40,009 nt of DNA. Source: a virus. The stretch is from positions 1-40,009 of IMG/VR virus record IMGVR_UViG_3300045110_000131, one strand, 5' to 3'. Under the pieces are notes generated by a model. It was not told the DNA's origin. It searched no databases and was given only the letters and a program-made list of their open reading frames with translations. Shown in pieces: positions 7,974 through 34,540 of this stretch (position 1 is its first letter; each line of letters starts with the position of its first letter). Position numbers and translations under genes: made by a program.

Positions 7974-9944
7974 CTATTGATGGGTTAATGGTTTACGCAC
8001 GAACCATGTGTAATTGGCCCCAAACTCGACATGGGCGCCCACATGGGAAACAAACTCCTGCACAGCGCGGGTGACACCAAACGCCGGAAAATGCGGGTTG
8101 TCATAGTCATGGCCGCAAATCCATCCACCCTTCTTGACCTTCGGCAGCCAAGCCTCGATATCGGCCTTGCAGCCTTCATAGGAGTGATCGGCGTCGATGA
8201 ACACAAAGTCGAAGATGTCATCGACTTCGCGCTTCGATGCCGGGAGGCTGCGCTCGCGCTTCAGAACAGCGTGGCCATTGGCGAAGGAAACTGCCGACTT
8301 GGCCGCCTCATAGTTGGCCTCTTGGGCGGCATTGGACAAATTCATGTGCCAGTCTCCGGTTTTGTCCAAGTAGGCTTTGCCGTCGCCTTCCCAACTATCG
8401 ACCATGATCAATTCGAGGTCAGGCCGTTCTCGAAGCAGGGCCGCCGACATGGCGCCAGTGAATACGCCAACCTCAACGCCTTTTGGGTTTGGTGTGCCCT
8501 CGATCCTCGATAGCACCTCGTGCGCCCGCTGTTCGGCCGGAGACATGACCGGGTTGCGCTGCATGGCCCAGAGCATATCAGGAATGAGCCCTGATCCGTG
8601 AGCGGTCAGGGTGACGCCATGATCCATCATGAATTGCGCCAGCCCCTGAAACTCGTTGGCCTGCCCCGCCATCCAGGGAGCGCAGCGGTAATCCTTGTCA
8701 TTGAACATGACGTCGATGATGGGTTCGCCGTCATTGATCGCCTGGTGATAGGCGTGATGCCTATTCTCGTGATAGCAGCTGTCGAAGCCATAAAGATGGA
8801 TTTTGCGATAGCCTCGGAGATAGGCAAGCGATATGGCCAGAAGCCCCACCGTCGTGCCGCCGCCGATCAGGTGCACTGGCCTATACTTTTCGCCTGCCAG
8901 CCATTCCTGCATCCGGTCGATGTGGGGATGCCAAAGGGTGACCATTTCATCGGAACAGAAATCAAAGATCGACGGCGAACACTGAGAGGCAATCAGATAT
9001 TCGTTAGCGTTGTCCTCAATAAAAAATACCGTCTCGGATCGGGCATCAAGCAATACATGGACATTCACATGGGGAAGTAGTGCCGCAGTTCCATTAAGCG
9101 CCCAAATGTGCTGGCCCAAGCCTTGCCGCCACAGGATTTCATCCATCTGGCCCTTGAGCGATGGCCCACCGCCCACAATCACGCAATGCTTGTCATTGGC
9201 ACTGCCATCGAAGTCGAACCATGGCAGATCGCGGGCAATAGCCGCCTTCACATTGGCCTCGATCTTGGCCGAGTGGGTATTGCAGATTGCTGTCAGCTCC
9301 ATATTGGACAATCCCCCCACGCGCCAGACTTTGGGCACCCAGCCGGTCAGAACCTCGTGGGGGCGCGGTTTGCCATGGAACACAACCACCGCCGCTTTAT
9401 CAGGAGGGCCGGTGATTTGCTTGTAACTGACAAACATGCCGGGGAAGGCATCCTGTAGGCGGATGGCGCTTACGAGACGCCAACTCTCGATCCATGCCTG
9501 ATCGCCTCCCGAAACATTCGGAAATCCGGATTCAACATAGCTATTCCAAATCTCATCGAGATGCCCCGCGCCCGCTTCCCATGCCATGATAGCGGACTGG
9601 AGGCCCCCTGGGCGGTGGAAGTCACGGAGGATGGCAAAGGGGCCTTGATAGGCTGCGAGGGCGTCTATGGGGCCGCAAATTACGCTATCTAAGTCCAGAT
9701 ATAAAACCCTATCCCCCTTCGGGAACAGGTCATCCCGAAACAGAGCGCATTTTGACCACCAGCCCGGAAGATCGGCCGGCAGCGGGCGCTTGATAACACC
9801 ATCGGGCAGCGGGTCGTCCTGATCGGTGAAACAGGTAAAATCCCCATCGATCGGGTCAAGGTTTCTCATGACCATATCGAAGAGGTTGTGGACATAGGCT
9901 GGGGCGAACGCCGCCCCAGCCCGTATGCAGCAAATGTGCAGCAC
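7974..9944 (-). CDS. Three-domain protein: GT-A glycosyltransferase, DUF115-like domain, SAM methyltransferase
   Basis: 656 residues from a GTG at 9944 that overlaps the upstream TAG by one base. Residues 1-220 look like a nucleotide-sugar glycosyltransferase, with a DxD-type DLD at 84-86 and GGDQAWIES near 146-154. Residues 250-460 match the DUF115/MptE-like fold, seen in bacterial flagellin-glycosylation (Maf) proteins, with CVIVGGGPSLKG near 254 and IHLYGFDSCY near 382. Residues 485-656 are a class I methyltransferase with GVEVGVFTG (489-497) and FIDADHSYEG (582-591). The likely substrate is a cell-surface or virion glycan; this is inferred. It sits inside the head gene cluster, so late expression is expected. 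Such a triple fusion is uncommon to my knowledge. Confidence 0.7.
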   Translation of the reverse strand: MLHICCIRAGAAFAPAYVHNLFDMVMRNLDPIDGDFTCFTDQDDPLPDGVIKRPLPADLPGWWSKCALFRDDLFPKGDRVLYLDLDSVICGPIDALAAYQGPFAILRDFHRPGGLQSAIMAWEAGAGHLDEIWNSYVESGFPNVSGGDQAWIESWRLVSAIRLQDAFPGMFVSYKQITGPPDKAAVVVFHGKPRPHEVLTGWVPKVWRVGGLSNMELTAICNTHSAKIEANVKAAIARDLPWFDFDGSANDKHCVIVGGGPSLKGQMDEILWRQGLGQHIWALNGTAALLPHVNVHVLLDARSETVFFIEDNANEYLIASQCSPSIFDFCSDEMVTLWHPHIDRMQEWLAGEKYRPVHLIGGGTTVGLLAISLAYLRGYRKIHLYGFDSCYHENRHHAYHQAINDGEPIIDVMFNDKDYRCAPWMAGQANEFQGLAQFMMDHGVTLTAHGSGLIPDMLWAMQRNPVMSPAEQRAHEVLSRIEGTPNPKGVEVGVFTGAMSAALLRERPDLELIMVDSWEGDGKAYLDKTGDWHMNLSNAAQEANYEAAKSAVSFANGHAVLKRERSLPASKREVDDIFDFVFIDADHSYEGCKADIEAWLPKVKKGGWICGHDYDNPHFPAFGVTRAVQEFVSHVGAHVEFGANYTWFVRKPLTHQ

Positions 9945-12518: not shown

Positions 12519-12803
12519 TCAGGTGGTTTGATCCCAGGCCATGGCAATGTCCTCTTTCAGGCCGGGAGGGGTTGTTATTTCCTTAGGCTTGGCGTTGACG
12601 ATGGAGCTGTCATTGCCCGCAATCTCGCATCCCATCGCCCTCACGTCGCGCTCAAAAGCCCTCATGCAAGTGTATTCCTTGCCGTTGATCGGATTGCGTG
12701 TCGGCTCCATGCTGGTTTTCATCACCATGGGCGCGGGGAAATGATCGGACCCCTTGTCATGCGAGGGCTTGGGGGCGTGTGACCAGCGATAGACGATTGC
12801 CAT
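12519..12803 (-). CDS. Small hypothetical protein between tailspike and scaffold
   Basis: 94 residues, start overlapping the preceding gene's TAA (TAATG). It has FPAPMVMKTSMEPTRNPI, NGKEYTCMRAFERDVRAMG and a C-terminal MAWDQ, a layout seen in small phage proteins beside portal and scaffold genes. No membrane segment or catalytic motif is visible. The function is unknown. Confidence 0.55.
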   Translation of the reverse strand: MAIVYRWSHAPKPSHDKGSDHFPAPMVMKTSMEPTRNPINGKEYTCMRAFERDVRAMGCEIAGNDSSIVNAKPKEITTPPGLKEDIAMAWDQTT

Positions 12804-19273: not shown

Positions 19274-19501
19274 CTATCCTGCTGTCGGTGGCATCTGTTG
19301 CCGGTTCTGCATCATCGCGCCCATCCGTGATAGCCCGCCGCCCATTCCGCCGGGCATGGTTGGGCCAAAGCTAAGGGTGGGATTGGGCATACCAGGCGCC
19401 CATTGGCCAGCGCCATTAGCACCGCCGATAAGCTGTTCAATCAAGGCCATGAATTGGGCTTGGGTTATTGGGCCGTGCGGTTGGCCAGGAGCGTCTATCA
19501 T
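19274..19501 (-). CDS. Small Met/Gly/Pro-rich hypothetical protein
   Basis: 75 residues from the ATG at 19501, which overlaps the terminase stop as ATGA; an upstream ATG at 19537 would overlap terminase by 40 bp and is less likely. It opens with GPITQAQFMALIEQLIGG, a helical stretch, then becomes Met/Gly/Pro-rich (PGGMGGGLSRMGAMMQ). The function is unknown. Confidence 0.55.
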   Translation of the reverse strand: MIDAPGQPHGPITQAQFMALIEQLIGGANGAGQWAPGMPNPTLSFGPTMPGGMGGGLSRMGAMMQNRQQMPPTAG

Positions 19502-20874
19502 ATCCGGATCGAGCCTTTCTTCGGAAGCAATGCCCAAGCTTCCTCAAGTGTCATTTCATGGATAGTCCTGCCTTTGGGCTTGGGCGGAGGATCGGTCGCT
19601 ATCGTGCGCCAGGCCATGACCAGATACCGAAAGGCATCCGAGTAGTGCGAGGTCCAATCATGCAAGGGATTGTCTTTGAAGCACTTCTTGTCATCGTCCC
19701 ATTCAGCACGATAGCCGCGGAGCGCCTCGAGCCCATCCGCACATGCCACCTCGTCAAACCAGCAAATCGGCATGGCCTGGCGAACCGCATTGATACCGTC
19801 GTCGATCTTGTGCCCGGGCACGAGAACCGGCTTCCGCTTCAATGTGTTGAGAACCTCAACGCGCGTCTTGCCTGTGCCGATTTCAGCCACGCGGGCGTCG
19901 TGGGGCACATAGTCATTGCCCCAAGTATACGGGTACTGTTCCAGCTTCTTGACCAATTCCGGGATGGCGTCACTATGGGCGCCTGCCAGACAGCCGATGA
20001 CGCGGATTTCATTGGCTACCACCTGAAACAGCCAGATGGCCATATTGACGCCCTTGCCCAAGTCCCAGGCGGTGTGGACGGGCAGGAGTGGCTCATAGGG
20101 GACGCTGCGAATCCGGCCAGCCTTGGCGGCGCGTGCCAGCACCTTGCCATAGTAAGAGCCCAGAATAGCGGCCTCGAATGAGCACCAATATTCCTGCTCG
20201 ATCAGCGCGTCGCCTTCATCCTCGCCATAGAGCGCGTGGTATTCCTTGCGCTGTTCCTCAATCGATTCGAGCGGGAAACCCGTATTGTCGGGCGTCAGGA
20301 CTTCGGAAAACCAGCCCTTGGGGTTAGCAAGGCTCCAAGGATTGCTTCTCGCCATACCCAGCATTCGATAGGCATGGTTTTTGCCGCGCGGCGTGGTGAT
20401 AAAGGAAGCCCATCCACCGTTTTCGAGGAGCACCGGTGCCAGGTACGCCCAAGCTCCGGGGTTACTCAGTGCCCATTCCGAGAAGGTCAGCCCGACCGGT
20501 GGAGCGCCAACCAGAGAGTTCGGATTGTCCGAGCCAACAACCTTCCAAATAGACCCCGATTGCAGTTCAATCGTCATGTCCGAGTTATTGATGCGCTTGC
20601 GTATTTCGGGCGGGAAAGCCTCGTCTATGCGGCGCTTCTCGGTATGCGGGTTGATGGCCTCCCAGATCGCCTTGCGAGCCTGCTCGTACATGGGCAGACA
20701 ATGCCAATAGTTCCCGATGCGCTCATGGGCGGCCACGGCCGTCTTGTGGAGCTGTACATCATCCTTGCCTGCCCTGCGGTGCCATACCAGCAGTTCCCGC
20801 TTGCAACCATCCTGCCAGGCGCGCCATGAGGGAAGCTGATAGTCGCGGGGGTTCCAGTTGTTGGGAAGGCGAAT
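19498..20874 (-). CDS. Terminase large subunit (probable ATT start)
   Basis: Packaging ATPase and nuclease. The frame is open from 20916; its first ordinary start, GTG 20736, would remove the ATPase P-loop. Read from ATT 20874 the protein has 458 residues and opens IRLPNNWNPRDYQ, the usual terminase N-terminus. The Walker A-like WHRRAGKD lies at residues 31-38, Walker B at GLTFSEWA, nuclease acidic residues at TAWDLGKG, and a C-terminal HDWTSHYSDAFRY. The ATT lies two bases after the stop of a small upstream frame, as expected for coupled translation in this operon, with AGGCG 8 bases before it. A sequencing or assembly indel is the alternative. The small subunit lies upstream. Confidence 0.85.
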   Translation of the reverse strand: MRLPNNWNPRDYQLPSWRAWQDGCKRELLVWHRRAGKDDVQLHKTAVAAHERIGNYWHCLPMYEQARKAIWEAINPHTEKRRIDEAFPPEIRKRINNSDMTIELQSGSIWKVVGSDNPNSLVGAPPVGLTFSEWALSNPGAWAYLAPVLLENGGWASFITTPRGKNHAYRMLGMARSNPWSLANPKGWFSEVLTPDNTGFPLESIEEQRKEYHALYGEDEGDALIEQEYWCSFEAAILGSYYGKVLARAAKAGRIRSVPYEPLLPVHTAWDLGKGVNMAIWLFQVVANEIRVIGCLAGAHSDAIPELVKKLEQYPYTWGNDYVPHDARVAEIGTGKTRVEVLNTLKRKPVLVPGHKIDDGINAVRQAMPICWFDEVACADGLEALRGYRAEWDDDKKCFKDNPLHDWTSHYSDAFRYLVMAWRTIATDPPPKPKGRTIHEMTLEEAWALLPKKGSIRI

Positions 20875-20876
20875 GT

Positions 20877-21026
20877 CTATCGCCTGGTTCCAATATATAG
20901 AAGCGCCAGCCCATATCTAATAAGCATTCTCCGCCATAGCCTACGTTTTGGAGCATGAAGTGCGGATGCTTCGGAAGCAGTCAGAGGAACAATAGGCTTC
21001 CCCTCCAATTCGGACACCAAAAGCAT
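20877..21026 (-). CDS. Small ORF (49 aa) upstream of terminase, uncertain
   Basis: 49 residues from ATG 21026, immediately after the previous TGA and with AAGGAG 6 bases upstream. It starts MLLVSELEGKPIVPL and ends in a basic, hydrophobic tail. Its stop is two bases before the presumed ATT start of terminase, so it could couple terminase translation. A competing frame with a Cys-rich reading overlaps it (20941-21069). No function recognised. Confidence 0.4.
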   Translation of the reverse strand: MLLVSELEGKPIVPLTASEASALHAPKRRLWRRMLIRYGLALLYIGTRR

Positions 21027-21202: not shown

Positions 21203-21490
21203 TCAATACTTTACGAGGGTTATGTTCAGCGTGGCGTCGACATTGGCATTCACTATTTGCGCTGGCTTGCCATAAGCGCGATCGAGCAAGGCTTGGGCGG
21301 CCGATACCCTAGCCGAATCGCTTTGGGAACTGCCGGCAATCTTGCTCAGCGTATCAATGGCCATTGGCGCATAAACGCGGGCCAATTCTCCTATGTCGGC
21401 CCGTTGTTCCTTCGTAACGCGGAGCTTGCCGGCCGATTGTCCTCTTTTGCGCCCTGCGCCGGGGCGGGCTCCCCCTCGTCTATGGGCCAT
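21203..21490 (-). CDS. Terminase small subunit candidate
   Basis: 95 residues. The N-terminus is GGARPGAGRKRG, the basic Gly/Arg motif found at the start of many terminase small subunits and related phage proteins. It is followed by a helical region ending in VSAAQALLDRAYGKP, typical of that group. It would bind the packaging site and the large subunit, whose gene lies two small frames downstream. No full HTH is clear. The 110-base gap upstream is AT-rich and could hold late regulatory DNA. Confidence 0.65.
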   Translation of the reverse strand: MAHRRGGARPGAGRKRGQSAGKLRVTKEQRADIGELARVYAPMAIDTLSKIAGSSQSDSARVSAAQALLDRAYGKPAQIVNANVDATLNITLVKY

Positions 21491-21601: not shown

Positions 21602-21628
21602 ATTATACCTCATTTTGTGTTTCAGCAA
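21602..21628 (-). promoter_or_regulatory. Candidate late promoter (TATAAT box)
   Basis: On the - strand a perfect TATAAT occupies 21607-21602, overlapping the TAA stop of the NusG-like gene. TTGCTG at 21628-21623 is a possible -35 with a 15-base spacer. It reads toward the terminase and virion genes. The short spacer lowers confidence. Confidence 0.4.
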
Positions 21629-22052
21629 GGCTTGCTTTACGCTCAAGCGCCGCTCTCAGTTCATCGAAGCCTTGGTAACGTTCTGGCTTTTTTGAAAGTT
21701 TACCTTGGCAGAGGCGATGAAAATAGCGTTGAAGTCCGACGTTTCTAGCCTCGATCTCAGCCATGAAGCGTGAAATGTCACTATCGGGCACAGGAAGGGC
21801 TACAGCGGCTTCGTCGCGCCAGATGGTGTCAAACCCTTGGATGGCATTGAGAAGCCTGTGGGCGGGGCTAGGAATGGCGGCAAATAGGGTTTGGGGGAGG
21901 ATGGGGACATGCCATGTGCGGGCAGGGGCTCGCCGACGCTCAAGGCGGAAGTGAAATTCCTCGGGGAGCCAAACAAGGTGGCCAGCGCGGGTGATCTCGT
22001 GGGCTACCCTGCGCTCCATGTGGCGATCGGTTGAGAGGCAGTACCAGGTCAT
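21603..22052 (-). CDS. NusG-like (NGN domain) transcription factor, putative late antiterminator
   Basis: 149 residues. The first 90 match the NusG N-terminal domain: MTWYCLSTDRHMERRVAHEI, then WLPEEFHFR, a basic loop and ILPQTLFAAIP in place of the usual LFPGYLF. PVPDSDISRFM follows, as in alphaproteobacterial and phage NusG paralogues. No KOW domain is seen; the C-terminus is helical and basic. NGN domains bind RNA polymerase and alter pausing or termination. The gene ends just before the terminase leader, which suggests control of late transcription. The start overlaps the upstream stop as ATGA. Confidence 0.65.
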   Translation of the reverse strand: MTWYCLSTDRHMERRVAHEITRAGHLVWLPEEFHFRLERRRAPARTWHVPILPQTLFAAIPSPAHRLLNAIQGFDTIWRDEAAVALPVPDSDISRFMAEIEARNVGLQRYFHRLCQGKLSKKPERYQGFDELRAALERKASLAETQNEV

Positions 22053-22249
22053 GCCTCGCCTTTCTCGATCTTGTCGGCAAGCGATAGGATTTCCTGTGGT
22101 TTTGCGATTTGGGCCGCCTCCCGCAATCCATTGACTTTGCCGAGTAAATACCCCGCAACTCTAGCGTTGTGGTCAATATTATAAAGCGCCTGAGCAAGGT
22201 CGCCGTCCAATAGTTTAATCTCCTCGGCAACTTTTTCCCAATCCGTCAT
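22049..22249 (-). CDS. Small protein of the MSDW/MTDW paralogue pair (copy 2)
   Basis: 66 residues beginning MTDW and ending LADKIEKGEA, with GLREAAQIA in between. These three elements also occur in the 81-aa protein at 22903-23148, so the two are paralogues with different middles. Both ends overlap neighbours by 4 bp (ATGA). It is predicted all-helical and soluble. The function is unknown. Confidence 0.65.
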   Translation of the reverse strand: MTDWEKVAEEIKLLDGDLAQALYNIDHNARVAGYLLGKVNGLREAAQIAKPQEILSLADKIEKGEA

Positions 22250-22473
22250 GATTGGCCTCGCTTCGCGGGGGGTATTTCGCTGTAGCGTTTGTGCAGCACC
22301 CAGCCTCCCTCCATGCCTTTCCAGAATCGATCTTCAAGTTCTTGTGATAGCTCTTTGGCAGAGATCGGTCTGGCCAAAAGCCGCTCTGCGGCTGCAATGG
22401 ATGAGTTTTCATGCGCCTTATTCGCCGCTATCGTCGCAGCCAATTCCTCGGGGTCTACTGGCGGGGGGCTCAT
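22246..22473 (-). CDS. Small protein of the VDPEELAATIAANKA paralogue pair (copy 2)
   Basis: 75 residues, about three-quarters identical to the 73-aa protein at 22685-22906: both have VDPEELAATIAANKA, a SISAKEL or PISAKEL segment and DRFWKG-EGGWVLHKRY. The DNA is also closely similar, so this is a recent duplication. Helical and acidic, no cysteines or membrane segment. It overlaps both neighbours by 4 bp. The function is unknown. Confidence 0.7.
   Translation of the reverse strand: MSPPPVDPEELAATIAANKAHENSSIAAAERLLARPISAKELSQELEDRFWKGMEGGWVLHKRYSEIPPAKRGQS
22283..22473. repeat. Duplicated about 190-bp segment, copy 2
   Basis: Closely similar, in the same orientation, to 22713-22906, with scattered mostly third-position changes and one codon difference in length. 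It contains most of the 75-aa gene. Confidence 0.85.
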
Positions 22474-22688
22474 TTGCCGCGCCGTCTTGGATGTGCGCCG
22501 GGGTTAATGTAGTTCCGCTTATGGGTATGGATTGCCACTTGTCGAGCTGGCCTAAACCATGAAGGCAATCCCCGGATAATCCAGTGAAACCATAATCCAA
22601 AGCTGGCGGTTACAGTTTGCGGGTAGGCGGTTCGCTTCCCCCAGGCCAGTGCGATCAATCTCCGATTGTCGGTGGTTATTGAAATCAT
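22470..22688 (-). CDS. Hypothetical basic protein between the duplicated genes (72 aa)
   Basis: 72 residues, strongly basic and Trp/His/Arg-rich (GLWFHWIIRGLPSWFRPARQ, then KRNYINPGAH). It overlaps each of the two duplicated genes by 4 bp, so it is the centre of a mirrored five-gene set. No match to a known family was recognised. The Trp-rich central segment could be amphipathic. Coding status rests on the perfect overlaps. Confidence 0.55.
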   Translation of the reverse strand: MISITTDNRRLIALAWGKRTAYPQTVTASFGLWFHWIIRGLPSWFRPARQVAIHTHKRNYINPGAHPRRRGK

Positions 22689-22906
22689 GCTCCTCCCCCT
22701 GTAACTTCCATATAGCGTTTGTGAAGCACCCAGCCCCCCTCTATGCCTTTCCAGAATCGATCTTCAAGTTCTTGTGCTAGTTCTTTGGCGGATATTGATT
22801 TGGCTAAAAGCAGCTCGGCCGCGGCGACGGATGAATTTTCAAGCGCCTTGTTCGCAGCTATTGTTGCAGCCAATTCCTCGGGGTCTACCGGCCGGGGACG
22901 GCTCAT
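22685..22906 (-). CDS. Small protein of the VDPEELAATIAANKA paralogue pair (copy 1)
   Basis: 73 residues, paralogue of the 75-aa protein at 22246-22473. The C-terminal tails differ (MEVTGGGA here, SEIPPAKRGQS there). It follows the MSDW-type gene with an ATGA overlap, whereas copy 2 precedes its MTDW-type partner. The function is unknown. Confidence 0.7.
   Translation of the reverse strand: MSRPRPVDPEELAATIAANKALENSSVAAAELLLAKSISAKELAQELEDRFWKGIEGGWVLHKRYMEVTGGGA
22713..22906. repeat. Duplicated about 190-bp segment, copy 1
   Basis: Direct repeat partner of 22283-22473. Long identical runs include the stretch coding for the DRFWKG box. The intervening 240 bp hold an unrelated gene. Confidence 0.85.
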
Positions 22907-23176: not shown

Positions 23177-23728
23177 TCATCTGAGATAGGTTTCTCCTGC
23201 GTCCTGACGGGCAAGCAGAGCCTTGAGGTATTTCGAGGCTGGCCGCGGAGGCGTCTTGAGAGGTGGCGGCTTGCCTTGGGCCACGGCCTCGTCCATGCGC
23301 TCGACGGCAGCCGTGGCAGCGGCAACCTCCTCTGCCGAGGGTTTGTATTTGCCGCGATTGTCCTCGGGGTCATAGCCCAGCTCGCGCATAACCTGCTCTT
23401 TGCGGGTTTCGGGTGGTGGCATTGGTGGGTCATTGTCGAAATCGAAGCGCCGGTAAGTCGTATGAGCCGACTTGAATTGGTTCTTGCGGTTTCTTTCCTC
23501 CTCGAGCCGATCAGCCTCGGCTTTCAGACAATCGACAATATCGGCGATCGAGGGGAGAAACTTGCACCGCGCAGCCACGCCGGTTCGTGGATTGATGACG
23601 ATTTCGAGTTCACCGAATGAAAGACCAGCCAGATATTCCGCGAAGGCCAGCAAATATTCAGGGGATGCCTTGCCGTAATCGGGGTAATTCGACAATATTC
23701 GCTTGGCCATTTCTTTCGCGCCCTTCAT
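23177..23728 (-). CDS. Replication-associated hypothetical protein, possible loader
   Basis: 183 residues from ATG 23728 (in-frame ATGs at 23821 and 23710 are alternatives; the first would overlap the upstream gene by 164 bp). The middle contains LAGLSFGELEIVINPRTGV, then CKFLPSIADIVDCL, a block I know from proteins next to phage replication initiators in alphaproteobacterial phages. A charged coiled segment (ADRLEEERNRKN) and a Pro-rich C-terminus follow. Role as a helicase-loader partner is inferred from context. Confidence 0.5.
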   Translation of the reverse strand: MKGAKEMAKRILSNYPDYGKASPEYLLAFAEYLAGLSFGELEIVINPRTGVAARCKFLPSIADIVDCLKAEADRLEEERNRKNQFKSAHTTYRRFDFDNDPPMPPPETRKEQVMRELGYDPEDNRGKYKPSAEEVAAATAAVERMDEAVAQGKPPPLKTPPRPASKYLKALLARQDAGETYLR

Positions 23729-24353
23729 TTTCTCGGCGTTCGGCCTCGGCAATGACGGCATCGACTTTAGCCCATCCGTCGGCAATTGACCCTGGTTTGT
23801 GACCGTTGGGAGCTTGTCCATTGGTGTGACCTTTCATGCGCCGAAGCTGGTTGCGGAATGTGGCTTGCCAGTCGAGTTTGGTCCCACGAGATCCAGGAAC
23901 GCCCCGCCAGTAATCACAGAACTCCTCGAAGGCCTGTTGGGAAGCGGCCCGTGAAAGCAGCAGTTTTTCTGCTAGTTCGGCGCAACTGGCGTCTGGCTCG
24001 AAGTCGATCGGCAATCGTGTTCCCCTAGAAGGAAGGGGTTTTGAGGCGATGGGGGGTGGGGGGGTTCTTTCTTCCTTTCTTTCTAAACCTTCTCCAGAAG
24101 TAAGAGAAGAAAGGGTATTATCCTCTACGCGCGAGAGCGTTATATCGGCGTTACTGTAACGCCTTTGTAACGTCTCTGTAACGTCATTGTCGCCGTTACG
24201 GTGACGCTCTCTGTAACGTCTTTGTCGCTCGGCTGTGACCGATCGGCGCCTCTCCAATCCTTGAAGCTCAGCAGCAAGGAAAAGTATCGCTTCTCTCATA
24301 GCCGGTTCGGGCATACGGGCGATACGTTGGAGGGTTTCGGCGTCTAGGGGCAT
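23658..24353 (-). CDS. Replisome organiser-like DNA replication protein
   Basis: 231 residues from ATG 24353; the longer frame to 24587 would overlap the GcrA gene and starts with a poor sequence. The N-terminus (PLDAETLQRIARMPEPAMREA) is helical. A basic RQRRYRERHRNG region follows, then a disordered linker, then FCDYWRGVPGSRGTKLDWQA and FRNQLRR. The last block (usual form: F-DYW---PG--G-KLDW-ATWRNW-R) is typical of the C-terminal part of phage replication initiators such as DnaT-like proteins. It should recruit the host helicase to the phage origin; no origin was identified. Confidence 0.65.
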   Translation of the reverse strand: MPLDAETLQRIARMPEPAMREAILFLAAELQGLERRRSVTAERQRRYRERHRNGDNDVTETLQRRYSNADITLSRVEDNTLSSLTSGEGLERKEERTPPPPIASKPLPSRGTRLPIDFEPDASCAELAEKLLLSRAASQQAFEEFCDYWRGVPGSRGTKLDWQATFRNQLRRMKGHTNGQAPNGHKPGSIADGWAKVDAVIAEAERRENEGRERNGQANIVELPRLRQGIP

Positions 24354-24444: not shown

Positions 24445-25008
24445 TCATGGCGGGGGCCGTTTTGCAAGAGGCTGAAACACCCGCAAGGCATGTGCAGCAC
24501 ACCATGAGGAGAAGCCTTGAACCGGAGCGCCGCAGAACAGATGATGGTCACCGCTGGAGCTGGTGGCAAACCGGCATTGCCTGTCATTCAGATCCAGAAT
24601 ATGGAATGCCCCGCCAAGGGCCTTGGGAGGCTCAGGAATGGCCTTGGGCTTTCTGGGCTTGCGAGGCCTTGGGGCTGCTATGGAGCCGTCCAGCGAGGCC
24701 AGGGAGGGCGTCTCGCGCCTGCTGGGGGAGGGGCGGAAGTGGGAGGGCGGAGGGCGGCGCATTCCGAGCTTGATCCGGGCGCGGTGAACCATGCCACAGA
24801 CCGCATTGCGGGTAATGTGAAACCGTAGCGCAATGGTCGAGGAAGAGAGGCCTTCCTTGTCCTGCAGGGTGACGAAATGCTTGGCCAGCTCGAGGCATTC
24901 GGCCTTGTTCCTAGGCTTGAACTCACCCGAAAGAACGCCAGCCTTGCGCTTCTCGGCTATGGCGAGGTCATATGAAGCCTTGGCGTCCTGTTCCCAGTCG
25001 TAGGTCAT
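24445..25008 (-). CDS. GcrA-like transcriptional regulator
   Basis: 187 residues. Residues 53-84 form a helix-turn-helix (LSSSTIALRFHITRNAVCGMV) followed by HRARIKLG, matching the GcrA N-terminal domain. Residues 137-181 carry LDLNDRQCRF, FCGAPV, WCAAH and VFQP, with Cys145, Cys159, Cys170 and His173 placed as in the GcrA C-terminal domain. In Caulobacter, GcrA binds DNA methylated at GANTC and sigma-70 RNA polymerase. A Pro-rich linker joins the two parts. The ATG overlaps the methyltransferase stop as ATGA, so the two are translationally coupled. Confidence 0.75.
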   Translation of the reverse strand: MTYDWEQDAKASYDLAIAEKRKAGVLSGEFKPRNKAECLELAKHFVTLQDKEGLSSSTIALRFHITRNAVCGMVHRARIKLGMRRPPPSHFRPSPSRRETPSLASLDGSIAAPRPRKPRKPKAIPEPPKALGGAFHILDLNDRQCRFATSSSGDHHLFCGAPVQGFSSWCAAHALRVFQPLAKRPPP

Positions 25009-25901
25009 TCGGCCGCCTCGAGCATGTCGAACAGTCCGACGCCATCAGCCTCAACCGATTGCAAATGTCTGACTGCGTGTTGCCAGTAGGTTTCTTTCAG
25101 CTCGATCCCGATAAATCGGCGCTTGAGTTTCGTGGCGATATATCCCTCGCTGCCAATGCCCATGAATGGGCTCAGAACTACATCTTTGGGGTTACTCCAG
25201 AGGATGACGGCCCGCTCGATCAGGTCGATTTGCAGTGGACAAAGATGGCGCTCATCCTTGGCTTCCTTGGCCATGCGCACGTTGAGCGTGTTAGTCTGAT
25301 TGATGTCCATCCAGACCGGCGAGGCCCACTTTTGCCATTGCGTGACGGGAAATTCGGCTGGCTTCTGGCCGACTGGTTCGGTGTTCTCGCCCTCATTGCG
25401 GAATACCAGCAAGTAATCCGGCATTCCGGCGCGGCTTTTGGTGCTGTCCTTCTGCAATTGCTTGTAAAGCAGCCCGAGCGCCTTGGTTCGGGTCATTTCG
25501 ACTACGGGGTCTTTCCAGACTGTAATCCGACTATGAAGGGTCCAACCATGTTCCTCATGGGCGCGGATAATGTCGCCGGAAAAATCCCGAATGCCTAGCT
25601 TGCCGTCCTTCCACTTACGAAATGGAAGATCGGAGCAATGAACCGCCGAAAGCCGCCCAGGCTTAGTGACGCGAGCCATTTCCTTGATCAGGAATTTGTA
25701 ATGCTCGAAGAACTGGCCATCCGATGAACTATTGCCCATGTCGGCTTCCGAATCGGAATAGACGAAAAGATCACCGAAAGGCGGGCTATAAACGCTGAAT
25801 CCTATCGAGGCGTCCGGCAATTGCCGCGCCACGTCGACGCAATCTCCGTGAAATGCCGTAAACCTGTCGCCCGATACTTGCCCCAGACATTTCACAACCA
25901 T
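25005..25901 (-). CDS. DNA methyltransferase with SPPF motif (N4-cytosine or N6-adenine)
   Basis: 298 residues. The catalytic motif IV, YSPPFG, is at 38-43 and the SAM-binding FMGIGS at 246-251. Motif IV before motif I is the beta-class order. SPP-type motifs are more usual in N4-cytosine enzymes than the DPPY of N6-adenine enzymes such as CcrM, so this is unlikely to be a CcrM copy. No nuclease gene lies beside it. It overlaps the helicase gene by 10 bp and the GcrA gene by 4 bp. The role could be protection from host restriction or marking of phage DNA for regulation. Confidence 0.8.
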   Translation of the reverse strand: MVVKCLGQVSGDRFTAFHGDCVDVARQLPDASIGFSVYSPPFGDLFVYSDSEADMGNSSSDGQFFEHYKFLIKEMARVTKPGRLSAVHCSDLPFRKWKDGKLGIRDFSGDIIRAHEEHGWTLHSRITVWKDPVVEMTRTKALGLLYKQLQKDSTKSRAGMPDYLLVFRNEGENTEPVGQKPAEFPVTQWQKWASPVWMDINQTNTLNVRMAKEAKDERHLCPLQIDLIERAVILWSNPKDVVLSPFMGIGSEGYIATKLKRRFIGIELKETYWQHAVRHLQSVEADGVGLFDMLEAAE

Positions 25902-27253
25902 GATGGCAATTCCCCCTCGAATGTTGGATTATAGGCGATCTTCTTGGCGCTCGCCCGGCCCACGTTGCGTTGCATCGCGGTGGCCATGGCGTATTTCATG
26001 CGGGCATGATCGGCGGCCTTGCGGTCGATGACCCGCCCGATCTGATCCTCGCCCTCGGCCACGATCACATGGACGTTGACGGGCTTGTGCTGCCCGAAGC
26101 GCCAGCAGCGCCTAACCGATTGATACCATGCCTCGTAAGAGAACGTCCGGCCCACATAAGCCATGTTGTGGCAGTGCTGCAGGTTGAGCCCTTGGCCGCC
26201 GATCGACGGCTTGGTGATCATGATGCGGGCGTGACCCAAGGCGAAGCTTTCTAGCGCATCTTCCTTTTTCTCGATCGGCATCGAGCCCCGGACCTCGACG
26301 GCGCCGGGCAAGCGCTTCTTGAGCGCGTCGGCTTCGAGATCGGTATCGCACCAGAACAGCCAATAGTCGTCGGTGAGCAAAGATGCCGCGAGATCGGCGC
26401 GCGCCTCCGTGGTCTGCCGTTTGATGTCAAACATATTCGTTGCCGAAACGTCAGTCACGAATAGCGAGCCGTCCATGGGTTTGATCGTGGTGCCGTAGGT
26501 TCTGTGGCGGACGATATTGAGCGGCGGCAGATTGTAGCTATCGCCCGGAAATCCCAAGTCCTCGGGATGCTGCGCCATGCGGGACCATGAGGCCATCCAG
26601 TCCCAGAAGTCCTGCTCGGCGTGTTTCTTGAGCCGCCACTGTTGCGAGGCCTCGGCGGTGTCGTTGATAAACCAGCGCATGAGCATTTCGTTGGCTGGCA
26701 TGATCCCAAGGAAATCCGATTGCTGGCCCAATTCCATATGGTCGTTCGGCGCCGGCGTAGCGGTGGCGCACATGCGGAAGCGATGGGCGGCAAAAGCGTC
26801 TATCAGGGCGCCGGCCATCTTGCCGCCGAAGCTCTTGAGAATGCCCGCCTCATCGAGGGAAACCACTCCAAACGCATCGGGGTCCAGCTTTTCGAGGCGA
26901 TCGTAATTGCAGATGTTGATCCCTGGCTTGGCTTGTGCCTGGTCACGGATCACGCGGGCATCATAGCCAAGATGCAGGGCCTCCCGCTCGATCTGGCGGG
27001 CAACGGCGAGCGGTGTTAGAATAAGCGCCATGCCATTCGATTGTTCCGCGCATTGCTTGGCCCATTCGAGCTGGCAGCGGGTTTTCCCAAGGCCGGTATC
27101 GAGATAGAGGCCAGTGCGTCCCTGTCGAATTGCAAAGGCCACGCAAGCCTGTTGGAAGTTGGCAAGGTGATCGGGGAGGGGAGACGGCTCAAAACCGCTA
27201 GCATGGGCGCGAGGGGCCTTGGCGGCCAGGAACCTGCTATATTCCGGGTTCAT
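25892..27253 (-). CDS. SNF2/DEAD-type DNA helicase
   Basis: 453 residues from ATG 27253, overlapping the HTH stop as ATGA (a TTG at 27280 is an unlikely longer start). Walker A is TGLGKT at 53-58, Walker B DEAG at 134-137, motif III-like ATATPAPN near 163-170, and the helicase C-terminal lobe ends with QSVRRCWRFGQ at 378-388, the SNF2-type motif VI. It should be a double-stranded DNA translocase or remodeller used in phage replication. Similar helicase-methyltransferase pairs occur in other phages. Confidence 0.8.
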   Translation of the reverse strand: MNPEYSRFLAAKAPRAHASGFEPSPLPDHLANFQQACVAFAIRQGRTGLYLDTGLGKTRCQLEWAKQCAEQSNGMALILTPLAVARQIEREALHLGYDARVIRDQAQAKPGINICNYDRLEKLDPDAFGVVSLDEAGILKSFGGKMAGALIDAFAAHRFRMCATATPAPNDHMELGQQSDFLGIMPANEMLMRWFINDTAEASQQWRLKKHAEQDFWDWMASWSRMAQHPEDLGFPGDSYNLPPLNIVRHRTYGTTIKPMDGSLFVTDVSATNMFDIKRQTTEARADLAASLLTDDYWLFWCDTDLEADALKKRLPGAVEVRGSMPIEKKEDALESFALGHARIMITKPSIGGQGLNLQHCHNMAYVGRTFSYEAWYQSVRRCWRFGQHKPVNVHVIVAEGEDQIGRVIDRKAADHARMKYAMATAMQRNVGRASAKKIAYNPTFEGELPSWL

Positions 27254-27453
27254 GACGCCATTTTCCTCTTGCTCACCCAATCAGTGAGGGAAACAGCCCC
27301 TTGGGTGAACTGTTGGATTTTGAGAATGATCCGCGCCGAGGGGATATATTCTCCGTGGCGGTATCTGGTTACCAGCGACCGATCAATGTCGATTGCATCC
27401 GCCAGCTCGCGGTCTGTGAGGTTGTTGGCTTCCATGTAGATGCGGAGGTTCAT
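27250..27453 (-). CDS. Small HTH protein, Cro/repressor-like
   Basis: 67 residues from ATG 27453 (a GTG at 27489 would add 12 residues; neither has a clear ribosome site). It is nearly all helix-turn-helix: NNLTDRELADAIDIDRSLVTRY, then RHGEYIPSARI and QQFTQGAVSLTDW, the layout of XRE-family phage regulators. It is divergent from the + strand block and adjacent to palindromic sites, so it probably binds them. No second repressor or integrase is present. Confidence 0.7.
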   Translation of the reverse strand: MNLRIYMEANNLTDRELADAIDIDRSLVTRYRHGEYIPSARIILKIQQFTQGAVSLTDWVSKRKMAS

Positions 27454-27483
27454 TTCACGATACTGGCAAATTATTTCGTGCTT

Positions 27484-27537
27484 GTCCACACTTTTTTATT
27501 GACGGGCCATGGGAAAGGTGTAGTGTGGGGTCACACA
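27484..27537 (+). promoter_or_regulatory. Divergent control region: promoter and putative operators
   Basis: TTGACG at 27499-27504 and TAGTGT at 27521-27526 (16-base spacer) form a weak sigma-70-like promoter reading into the + strand genes. GTGTG-GGGT-CACAC at 27524-27537 is a perfect 5-bp inverted repeat over the -10 and start point. The motif AGTGTGG recurs in inverted orientation at 27486-27492, just before the HTH gene. Two related sites flanking a promoter suggest repressor binding. No equally good - strand promoter was seen. Confidence 0.5.
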
Positions 27538-27551
27538 AGAGGGAACACGCC

Positions 27552-27707
27552 ATGACACAGAAAGAAAGATTGATCGGCGCTCTAGCTCATGCGCTTGATG
27601 AAATTCATAATCCGGGAGCGGCTCACGCCCAAGGCGTGGACATATTGAAGATGATTAATACCGTGCTTTATGAAGCAACCAAACTGCCGCAATTCAAGCA
27701 GGAATAA
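27552..27707 (+). CDS. Small hypothetical protein, first gene of the + strand block
   Basis: 51 residues from ATG 27552, with GAGGGAAC upstream. It starts MTQKERLIGALAHALDEIH and is helical, with no motif recognised. An in-frame GTG at 27525 lies inside the putative operator and is unlikely. As the first gene after the promoter it is the most likely to be expressed at once on infection. The function is unknown. Confidence 0.6.
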   Translation: MTQKERLIGALAHALDEIHNPGAAHAQGVDILKMINTVLYEATKLPQFKQE

Positions 27708-27709
27708 TC

Positions 27710-28483
27710 ATGACCATGCAATTCGAGATCACCCCGACAATCGCCGCCAAGGTTCTGGAAGTCGTAGACGCTGGCCTTGTGAGTGGCGTCGGTGAACCGG
27801 TCCCCGGTCAGATGTGCGTCGAAGCCGCCGTATGTTACGCCATGGGGCTGCCTCACGGCGATGACCCAGAGTGTGTGTCTCGCGCTTTGCGGTCACTCAA
27901 GATCAAACTTAACGATAGCAACTGGTCATCCGATGCAATGCGGGCCAAGGGGCTCCGTCGTCTCGCGCTGATCCAGCTTGGCAGCCGTAATGCGCTTGAT
28001 GACAAGGAGTTTGTCCGCCGCCTAGTCAAGTTGGCAATCGGCAAACAGGTTCCTATCGCGCTCCGGGCAGCCGCTTCAATTCATCCCGATAGCAACCATA
28101 AAGCTGCGCTTCTTAATGCGGCGGCCCGCTGCGAGAAGGAAAAGACGAGAGCCGCCGCCGCCGCCGCCTACGCCGCCGCCGACGCCGCCTACGCCGCCGA
28201 CGCCGCCTACGCCGCCTACGCCGCCGACGCCGCCTACGCCGCCGCCGACGCCGCCGCCTACGCCGCCGACGCCGCCGACGCCGCCTACGCCGCCGACGCC
28301 GCCGACGCCGCCGCCGACGCCGCCGCCGACGCCGCCTACACCGCCGCCGCCGTCGCCGCCGACGGCGACGCCGCCGCTCGTGACAAAATTCTTTCCGAAT
28401 TTGCCGAGGACGTTGTGCAAATCCTCATCGCCATGAATGTCCCAGGCGTTCAATGGCTCGAACTCGCTCCATTGGCAGCTTGA
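27710..28483 (+). CDS. Phage protein with conserved N-domain and Ala-rich repeat tail
   Basis: 257 residues. The first 140 form a conserved domain I recognise from early regions of many phages and prophages: AGLVSGVGEPVPGQMCVEAA, CYAMGLPHGDDP and GLRRLALIQLGS. Residues 148-220 are almost only Ala with regularly placed Tyr and Asp (AAYAADAA units), from a GCC-rich tract. The last 35 residues are ordinary sequence. The frame is right because the conserved domain and the tail share it. Function unknown. The tract may vary in copy number. Confidence 0.75.
   Translation: MTMQFEITPTIAAKVLEVVDAGLVSGVGEPVPGQMCVEAAVCYAMGLPHGDDPECVSRALRSLKIKLNDSNWSSDAMRAKGLRRLALIQLGSRNALDDKEFVRRLVKLAIGKQVPIALRAAASIHPDSNHKAALLNAAARCEKEKTRAAAAAAYAAADAAYAADAAYAAYAADAAYAAADAAAYAADAADAAYAADAADAAADAAADAAYTAAAVAADGDAAARDKILSEFAEDVVQILIAMNVPGVQWLELAPLAA
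28151..28376 (+). repeat. GCC-rich tandem repeat array (Ala/Asp/Tyr codons)
   Basis: About 225 bp made almost wholly of GCC, GAC and TAC codons in irregular 12-15-base units. It reads as Ala-rich, Pro/Thr-rich or (antisense) Gly/Val-rich protein in different frames. Slippage is likely and short-read assembly may have misjudged its length. Confidence 0.9.
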
Positions 28484-32586: not shown

Positions 32587-33130
32587 AGGCTGCGGCAAGA
32601 AACACTTTGGCCGGGGCTGGTGTCACGCTCATTGGTATCGCTGGTCGAAGCATGGATCACCGTTTGGCGGAAGGACATTTCGCGGTAATCTGCCAAAATG
32701 GATCATGGAGCATGTGGGCTATTCTGGCGACGATTGCCTTAAATGGCCGTTTGGAAAGGGTTCAAGAGGCTATGGGTCCATCATTTGGGATGGGAAACTT
32801 CAATACGCGACAAGAGTAATGCTGACCCTCACGGCAGGACCGCCCCCATCTCCCGACCATGAGGCTGCGCATTCCTGTGGCCGGGGTCACGAAGGATGTG
32901 TGAACCCAAAACATCTTCGGTGGGCAACTCACAAGGAAAATCAAGCGGACAAAGAAGGTCATGGAACCATTCTTAGGGGCGAGCAACACCCCGCCGCGAA
33001 ACTTTCCGAAGCAGACGTTCTGGAGATCAGAGCATCGAGCGATACTATTGCAAATCTAGCCGCGCAATTTGATGTGACGCCTAGAAACATACGCCACATC
33101 AAGCAGCATACAAGTTGGGTCCGGGTCTAA
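32564..33130 (+). CDS. HNH homing-type endonuclease with N-terminal zinc module and C-terminal HTH
   Basis: 188 residues. A Cys/His-rich N-terminus (CEVEGCG and WCHAHWYRW) comes first. The HNH_3 core has HEAAHSCGRGHEGCVNPKHL and RWATHKENQADK near residues 100-130. A C-terminal HTH (LSEADVLEIRASSDTIANLA then QFDVTPRNI) follows, as in free-standing phage homing nucleases. Such enzymes cut related genomes to spread. The stop TAA shares bases with the convergent glycosidase stop. Confidence 0.8.
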   Translation: MRKICEVEGCGKKHFGRGWCHAHWYRWSKHGSPFGGRTFRGNLPKWIMEHVGYSGDDCLKWPFGKGSRGYGSIIWDGKLQYATRVMLTLTAGPPPSPDHEAAHSCGRGHEGCVNPKHLRWATHKENQADKEGHGTILRGEQHPAAKLSEADVLEIRASSDTIANLAAQFDVTPRNIRHIKQHTSWVRV

Positions 33131-34422
33131 TTGATGGCATACAGATGGATCGCCAATCCATCCTGAAATGAGTCACTAAATTTTCCACCCACGATAGGAA
33201 GTGAACGGCTTTCACCAATCACTGTCACTGTTCCGGTAGTGACGCCTGAAAGCGTAAACGTCGCGGTCGATGCCGTGTTTTCCTTCGCGCCCGCGAAAAT
33301 TGTATACTTGCCGCCGCTGAATTTGCTCATGACGCGCACGTCTGGCGTGGCGGTGCAATAGCTTGGCGCAGTAGGTGAATTTAGAACCGGAGCGAGCGCC
33401 TTGATCTGCGCGTTGACCGACTTCACGACCGCCCTTTGTGCTGCATAGGCGGGTTCCCTAAGGCAGTGAGCTGAAATGTTCGGGCCGGCAAAGCTATGGT
33501 TGAAATAAATCACCCCGCGAGCCCCGGCGATGATCGAGTGCCATACCGCCGCGCGGATTTGCGGAGGCGTGATAGATGGCTCCGTCGCCCTGTCTGACGG
33601 ATGCCCAACCTCCACAAAATTCCATGCGGGCTTGATCTTGCCATCTACCGTGTCGAGGTTTCTGACGTGATCGACTATCACGCCATAGTTGGATGCGCGA
33701 AAGCCTTCGGCCGGCGTCATGGGGCGGCCTAGCTTGAAAAATTCGCCGCCCTGCCATCTGGTTTGCAAATCGCTGTCGGTGAACCAGTAGTTATCAAGCG
33801 ATTGCAAGTGAGAAAAGTCGTTCCAGTATTGCTCCTGGTCGGCGGGTAAATTCCAGACCGTGACCCCTTTCCCAAAATTTATATATCTGGCGCGGCCATC
33901 CGGCGGCAGTGCCGCCAACTTCTTTTCAAGGTCGGCCCTGGCAATCGCCGCCCCGTCTGGATTTGCTTGAGCCATGTCTGGCTCGTCGGCCACCACCCAG
34001 CCGGCGAAGGCCGGGTTGGTGGCGACTGGCTTGGCCATCCAGTCCGCCTGTAGCAGCGCCCGCATCCCCGCGGCCTGGATCAAATCCATGCGGCTGTCCG
34101 TGGTGAGATAGACATAGAGGTTCAAGCCGCAGTCCTTGTCGAGATCGACGTGGCTTTGCTCGATGACGCCCTCATACCAGACGCCGATTGGGAAATAAGA
34201 CGGATCATCCGATAGCGGATAAGAGAACTGTCCATAGTATTTCGTGCCGCCGTCTATCTCGATGAGGTCGGTGGGCGGCGGGTTGATCGGGGGAGGCGTC
34301 ACCGTGACATCGTACTCGTTGGCGGCGATCCAGGTCTTTAGCTCCTTGCTCCTTCTATTGGGAGGAACGAAGATAGCGTCAATCTCAGCGTTCAGTGGAG
34401 CGGACTGTACGATCTTGGTCAT
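33127..34422 (-). CDS. Glycoside-hydrolase-like (TIM-barrel) phage protein
   Basis: 431 residues from ATG 34422. A Pro-rich linker (residues 40-52) leads to YFPIGVWYEG and an internal GWVVADEPDMAQ (Asp146-Glu147), where the DEP(D) box matches a group of TIM-barrel glycosidases in which the acidic residue is catalytic. YINFGKGVTVW and a YWFTDSDL box follow. The last 90 residues look like an immunoglobulin-like or beta-sandwich domain. It could digest host polysaccharide, either tail-attached or released at lysis. It is the last gene of the late unit, after the lysis cassette. Confidence 0.6.
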   Translation of the reverse strand: MTKIVQSAPLNAEIDAIFVPPNRRSKELKTWIAANEYDVTVTPPPINPPPTDLIEIDGGTKYYGQFSYPLSDDPSYFPIGVWYEGVIEQSHVDLDKDCGLNLYVYLTTDSRMDLIQAAGMRALLQADWMAKPVATNPAFAGWVVADEPDMAQANPDGAAIARADLEKKLAALPPDGRARYINFGKGVTVWNLPADQEQYWNDFSHLQSLDNYWFTDSDLQTRWQGGEFFKLGRPMTPAEGFRASNYGVIVDHVRNLDTVDGKIKPAWNFVEVGHPSDRATEPSITPPQIRAAVWHSIIAGARGVIYFNHSFAGPNISAHCLREPAYAAQRAVVKSVNAQIKALAPVLNSPTAPSYCTATPDVRVMSKFSGGKYTIFAGAKENTASTATFTLSGVTTGTVTVIGESRSLPIVGGKFSDSFQDGLAIHLYAIN

Positions 34423-34540
34423 TCTTGCATTCCTCAAGGTAGGCGTTCAGTAACGCAAACAACTTCTCAGCCTTGTCCGTCTGCCCGTCGATGAGCAGAT
34501 ATTGGGCGAGGTGAGAGGCGGAATCGATGAAGCGGTCCAT
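34385..34540 (-). CDS. Tiny helical protein (51 aa)
   Basis: 51 residues from ATG 34540 (TGATG overlap). It begins MDRFIDSASHLAQYLLIDG, then a helical KAEKLFALLNAYLEECK, an N-terminal pattern of small helix-pair proteins. It overlaps the glycosidase start by 38 bp, which weakens it, but the upstream overlap is exact. Function unknown. Confidence 0.45.
   Translation of the reverse strand: MDRFIDSASHLAQYLLIDGQTDKAEKLFALLNAYLEECKNDQDRTVRSTER

Follow-up and report, generated by a model that had tools for sequence, protein, structure and literature searches.

A GcrA-like gene coupled to a helicase–methylase dyad in a probable early replication operon of an alphaproteobacterial virus

Few bacterial systems that gate transcription by methylation have been studied as well as GcrA/CcrM. 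GcrA of Caulobacter crescentus is a sigma70 cofactor (PDB 7ye1, 7ye2, 5yix, 5yiu; PMC7403470, PMC3667746) that binds domain 2 of sigma70 (PMC7403470), and in hosts with CcrM, whose mark is GANTC, this sequence is depleted at least two-fold genome-wide (PMC3973325). The 216 kb siphophage phiCbK encodes a GcrA homologue, gp222, that was proposed without proof to act on the host replication programme (PMC3556154). DNA methylases of phages and mobile elements also occur in dyads with a helicase; the archetype is P1 DarB, and an early or invasion-linked function has been proposed (PMC5512222). Phages of alphaproteobacteria carry, in addition, GANTC-specific methylases of the PhiLM21 p027 type, which have an NPPY/F/W motif (PMC5537653). 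Phage GcrA homologues and methylase–helicase dyads have each been published separately. What is new here is a coupled arrangement of the two and a purge of GANTC in certain GcrA-bearing phages, and the purge is the more interesting lead.

The window, meaning the whole stretch of DNA analysed, comprises 40,009 bp and is a single virus record from IMG/VR. The features of the operon and its surroundings are:

27490–27709, no strand: gap between the minus-strand operon and a divergent plus-strand block (from gene calls), GANTC count 0, presumed early control region
27250–27489, minus: HTH regulator, Cro/CII-like (PF01381, 33.8 bits; CII-like phrog_4836), heads the coupled run
25892–27253, minus: SF2/SNF2-like helicase (phrog_62, 1.5e-51; Helicase_C PF00271, 27 bits), half of the dyad
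25005–25901, minus: beta-class DNA methyltransferase (PF01555, N6_N4_Mtase, 73.1 bits; motif IV SPPF; motif I SPFMGIGS)
24445–25008, minus: GcrA-like protein, 187 aa (PF07750, 54.4 bits; profile, AlphaFold/Foldseek and invariant residues)
23658–24353, minus: DnaT-like replisome organizer (PF17948, 26.2 bits; phrog_1408, 3.5e-14; synteny), with 24353 as an estimate of the likely start
21603–22052, minus: NusG/RfaH-like protein (PF02357, 23.6 bits; phrog_6386 antiterminator), precedes the terminase genes
21203–21490, same direction as the operon: small conserved ORF in the small-terminase position

The helicase runs from an ATG at 27253 to a stop at 25892 and overlaps the methylase gene (25901–25005) by 10 bp, and the methylase gene in turn overlaps the GcrA-like gene (25008–24445) by 4 bp (ATGA). 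An earlier note, written from the sequence alone, had placed these three genes and their overlaps exactly. It described a run of three, however, and the coupled minus-strand run is one of four genes, head to tail: the HTH regulator, which the note missed, overlaps the helicase gene by 4 bp. The note also missed the replisome organizer, which starts about 90 bp past the GcrA-like gene; synteny shows an organizer after GcrA in the window and in two other loci (L107 and L200). Past the organizer, the NusG/RfaH-like gene, the small ORF, the large terminase, the portal and other virion genes continue in the same direction. The window encodes a tail needle-like protein as well as the portal and terminase, and its divergent plus strand holds exonuclease, NinB and HNH genes. 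The same plan is found in the circular podovirus record MW202785.1, with GcrA-like, replisome organizer, RfaH-like and large terminase genes on one strand and Erf, NinB and HNH on the other. The early operon of EBPR podovirus 1 (JF412294.1) has Cro, helicase, methylase, TerS and TerL in the order seen in the window, but GcrA is undetected there and GANTC is not depleted. The minus-strand genes are best explained as an operon for early replication in a podophage-like alphaproteobacterial virus, made up of the HTH regulator, the dyad, the GcrA-like gene and the replisome organizer. The overlapping four-gene run was not met elsewhere in this analysis and looks like a set of independent neighbours brought together in one early operon. 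A promoter scan of the window gave an uninformative 9 sites against 5.4 expected, and its Rfam and tRNA scans were empty.

The whole-protein score of the GcrA-like protein against PF07750 is 54.4 bits over a cut-off of 26.9, and it scores 38.1 bits against the host GcrA equivalog NF050816, for which the cut-off is 280; it is thus a divergent member and not the host protein. A helix-turn-helix at about residues 35–80 is followed by a linker and by a C-terminal domain of the sigma-interacting type at about 134–180 that contains C145, C159, C170 and H173. The (T/S)RNA..GK.HR helix appears at 66–78 as ITRNAVCGMVHRA, where GM replaces GK; ITRNAV is retained in the DNA-binding half, into which about 30 residues are inserted near the start. 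An AlphaFold model built from 16 phage sequences (pLDDT 77) places N-terminal helices at 35–52, 56–63 and 67–76. When the model was compared with the PDB by Foldseek, GcrA structures took the top three places at E-values of 0.07–0.4, which are weak by themselves, and the C-terminal domain matched the sigma-interacting domain 5yix_B (prob 0.97, TMt 0.68). The best seven matches in a viral library were all named phage GcrA. A profile built on nine phage members of the family, among them the window protein, recovers C. crescentus GcrA at full length (7ye1_G, 3e-36) and also its two domains on their own, 5yiu (DNA-binding) and 5yix (sigma-interacting). We accept the identification because rank, profile and residues agree, rather than on the PDB E-values. 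The earlier note's name for the protein, GcrA-like, is borne out by sequence and fold, and the structure prediction that it proposed gives a C-terminal fold that best matches C. crescentus GcrA. A mis-called ORF was considered and rejected, since Pfam, NCBIfam, profile and fold agree.

On sequence and predicted structure, then, the protein is a GcrA by family, with caveats. It resembles C. crescentus GcrA in its two-domain layout, the recognition helix ITRNAV, the C-terminal C-C-C-H domain and the predicted fold of that domain; it differs in its low overall similarity, its insert, its place far under the NCBI equivalog cut-off and its being encoded by a phage. Because of this distance from the host equivalog, and because the insert and the GM for GK both fall in the DNA-binding half, the protein may fail altogether to read methylated GANTC. 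It shares with phiCbK gp222 a phage-encoded PF07750 domain, although gp222 has no methylase neighbour and the window gene is coupled to the dyad.

Phage GcrA sequences are only about 20–30% identical to each other. The window protein is too divergent to have returned any match by tblastn against phage records or by a direct scan of viral contigs, and no part of an alignment of phage GcrAs was conserved well enough to scan contigs with. The matches in DMCA, RHph_X2_24, Yong-M4-211 and phiCbK began as leads from an approximate C. crescentus GcrA query and were re-scored with a locus-derived profile. Throughout all aligned phage GcrAs the C-C-C-H residues are invariant and the DNA-binding half is variable. 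This pattern would suit a competitor that occupies sigma70 domain 2, displaces host GcrA and shuts down the methylation-dependent regulon while activating nothing, and sigma-directed proteins are often phage-encoded (PMC7403470). A pure competitor would have no need of a DNA-binding helix, however, and nearly all phage copies keep theirs, so we regard this explanation as unlikely. In the protein of RHph_X2_24 the recognition helix is altered and the C-terminal domain is intact.

The methylase was described in the earlier note as not CcrM-like, and its SPPF motif IV bears that description out. CcrM is distinguished by DPPY and by its equivalog NF050803, against which the window enzyme scores 48.4 bits with a cut-off of 830. 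The enzyme shares with PhiLM21 p027 a place in the replication module of an alphaproteobacterial phage, but has SPPF where that type has NPPY/F/W. Assignment to CcrM or to the PhiLM21 type was rejected on these grounds. The nearest fold matches (TTHA0409, a rotifer m4C enzyme, CcrM and M.PvuII) include both m4C and m6A enzymes. SPPF is found in 79 of 80 methylase relatives as well as in the window, and the motifs overall are kept in 79–80 of the 80. The methylase has relatives in 359 phage records, with Mycobacterium, Flavobacterium and Arthrobacter among the hosts, and the family is very conserved, its putative target-recognition region included, across phages of unrelated hosts, among them hosts that have no GcrA.

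The steady partner of this methylase is the helicase. In 78 of 80 viral contigs the methylase has a helicase relative as its direct neighbour: the helicase lies no more than 400 bp upstream in 72 of them, mostly with overlaps of 4–25 bp, and the order is reversed in 6. Of the other two contigs, one has its helicase about 740 bp away (L039) and one ends just upstream of the methylase (L076). The helicase and methylase are a stable dyad. Like that of P1 DarB, the window dyad couples an SNF2-like helicase to a DNA methylase, here through the 10 bp overlap; DarB is a single polypeptide with a fused EcoKI/TaqI-like adenine methylase, whereas the window has two genes and a beta-class PF01555 enzyme with SPPF. 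Our literature search found no paper on the SPPF methylase–helicase pair as such.

GcrA keeps no such company. It is present in 23 of the 80 methylase-bearing contigs (PF07750, E <= 0.01), with the C-terminal residue pattern in 14 of the 80; the other matches are HTH-only or degenerate. Its position relative to the dyad ranges from -4.5 kb to +4.2 kb, and among the loci measured a true overlap with the methylase occurs in the window only. The slot after the methylase is taken by different genes in different relatives. As a sample free of selection on the methylase, 43 contigs were picked by terminase; 7 had GcrA, 7 had a PF01555 methylase and 1 had both (Fisher p = 1). Absence counts in the contig samples are soft, since many contigs are fragments. 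Searches of the GcrA-bearing contigs in the terminase sample found no D12-type methylase, and there was one C5 methylase among the 33 proteins around GcrA in five of them. These distributions suggest that GcrA and the dyad are independent neighbours, and they caution that the neighbourhood of a GcrA and a methylase need not mean a functional pair.

The first of two ideas in the earlier note was a methylation-timed switch, in which the phage's own methylase would tag newly made phage DNA and the tag would be read by the GcrA-like protein. The 4 bp overlap of the two genes speaks for it, as do the closest methylase relative (L002), in which a GcrA gene is also next, and the Caulobacter phage DMCA, whose GcrA and adenine methylase genes share an operon. 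Timing by the phage's own methylase is nevertheless unsupported, because GcrA and the methylase are independently distributed, the methylase is tied to the helicase, and its family is conserved, putative target-recognition region and all, in phages of unrelated hosts including those without GcrA. The shifting position of GcrA relative to the dyad and an enzyme that is neither CcrM nor a known GANTC type weigh further against the switch, which we consider very unlikely. DMCA itself (L233, PQ480021.1; 5971–8817) is a temperate phage of C. crescentus whose GcrA and DPPY adenine methylase genes lie about 870 bp apart in a replication operon. Isolates of DMCA and RHph_X2_24 are on record, and DMCA is a laboratory-tractable case.

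One thing about the placement of GcrA is constant: the gene is on the dyad strand in 20 of 20 measurable loci, which amount to about a dozen lineages once near-duplicates are removed. This bears on the idea that the gene is carried along as a mere passenger and does not affect the phage cycle. The great divergence between phages is what such a gene might show, but the invariant residues survive that divergence and the gene keeps to the operon strand, and a passenger is accordingly the most improbable of the explanations weighed here.

GANTC itself points to the host and, in other phages, to the role of the protein. The window has 44 GANTC sites against 105 expected under a maximal-order Markov model (o/e 0.42), the lowest ratio among 16 comparable palindromes and yet not a purge beyond the normal host level. 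Terminase relatives of the window occur in Inquilinus, Hyphomonadaceae and Mesorhizobium; given these taxa and the depletion, the host is likely alphaproteobacterial and of the CcrM type. The replication and recombination block (22.8–31.7 kb) has 3 sites against 24. Only two lie between 22755 and 31147, both within the methylase gene, and the gap at 27490–27709 has none. The earlier note had suggested a search of phage promoters for GANTC. A few sites are upstream of genes (12850 and 12948 before 12519–12803; 34521 before 33127–34437), but 10 of the 44 are intergenic where 21% of the sequence is intergenic by a crude gene caller, which is no enrichment, and the extended GcrA motif YGAKTCG is absent from the obvious promoter gaps of the window.

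More extreme cases exist among other GcrA-bearing phages. Observed against expected GANTC counts are 0/33, 1/64 and 6/52 in three of them (G101, G100 and G093), all with an intact recognition helix. The Sinorhizobium phage RHph_X2_24 (MW960031.1; L239+L232+L240), a 55.7 kb GcrA-bearing phage with no annotated methylase, has 4/166. Since the first three keep the helix and almost no GANTC, phage-borne GANTC cannot be the general target of phage GcrA. GcrA-bearing contigs are somewhat more depleted than others (medians 0.37 vs 0.54, p 0.037; 0.08 vs 0.71, p 0.043), a weak association because zero-GANTC contigs without GcrA also occur and host identity and kinship are uncontrolled. We searched the literature specifically for a GANTC purge in phages with GcrA and met no account of one, though such an account may exist. 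Phages that have kept the reader and nearly erased the mark offer a direct handle on the role of phage GcrA.

These counts also bear on whether the protein activates the phage's own promoters, tethering host sigma70 polymerase at the remaining CcrM-methylated GANTC sites or, through its divergent HTH, at a different sequence. The window retains 44 sites with some upstream of genes, the gene sits in the early operon as that of a phage activator would, and RHph_X2_24 combines an altered recognition helix with an intact C-terminal domain. On the other side stand the GANTC-free gap, the near-empty stretch around it, the lack of YGAKTCG and of intergenic enrichment, and GcrA-bearing phages with 0–6 sites. 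We find this explanation possible but doubtful.

The reading that we favor, tentatively and at a little less than an even chance, is that the early replication operon holds two separate tools, the dyad and the GcrA-like protein. The dyad would most likely modify phage DNA, either to counter restriction or in connection with replication, as has been suggested for dyads in other phages. The GcrA-like protein, by analogy with C. crescentus, would dock through its C-terminal domain on domain 2 of host sigma70 and redirect host RNA polymerase, most probably at promoters of replication-phase genes methylated by host CcrM. Redirection of this kind is suggested by a sigma-binding domain that is kept while GANTC is depleted. 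Host promoters are preferred over the phage's own because the obvious promoter gaps lack the extended motif and because GcrA is found in phages with 0–1 GANTC. Capture of host methylation-dependent transcription, the second idea of the earlier note, is thus the better of its two. A broader proposal is more speculative, and we would not bet on it: a class of alphaproteobacterial phages may purge GANTC so that their DNA is invisible to host methylation-gated transcription, while a GcrA-like sigma70 adapter drives or jams the host promoters gated in this way. The window phage would then be a less extreme example, its adapter firmly wired into the replication operon.

Several further observations concern phage GcrA and the window more generally. 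Two phages deposited as Synechococcus phages (L234, OM868079.1; PP438432.1) carry a typical GcrA gene; because GcrA is an alphaproteobacterial protein, their true host may be a culture companion. The NusG/RfaH-like protein (21603–22052) is a second polymerase-directed protein of the window phage and a candidate late antiterminator, and an "RfaH factor" occupies the equivalent place in the related podovirus MW202785.1. The large-terminase frame (19498–20910, minus) stays open upstream of 20736, where its first usual start codon lies, as far as about 20910; the extension contains a Walker A-like RRAGKDD without an ATG, GTG or TTG, so an unusual start codon or a sequence error is indicated. The small ORFs at 22246–22473 and 22685–22906 (minus) form a pair of near copies, and ...SLADKIEKG.A is shared by the ORFs that follow them, which end at 22049 and near 22903; a two-gene cassette has apparently been duplicated in tandem. 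The protein encoded at 27710–28483 (plus), close to where the divergent plus-strand block begins, has a long low-complexity Ala/Tyr/Asp repeat (AAYAADAA) and had no match in the family searches of window proteins. Finally, a large protein at 7974–9944 (minus) has glycosyltransferase and methyltransferase matches (phrog_1962, phrog_2675) and perhaps acts on surface sugars, not DNA.
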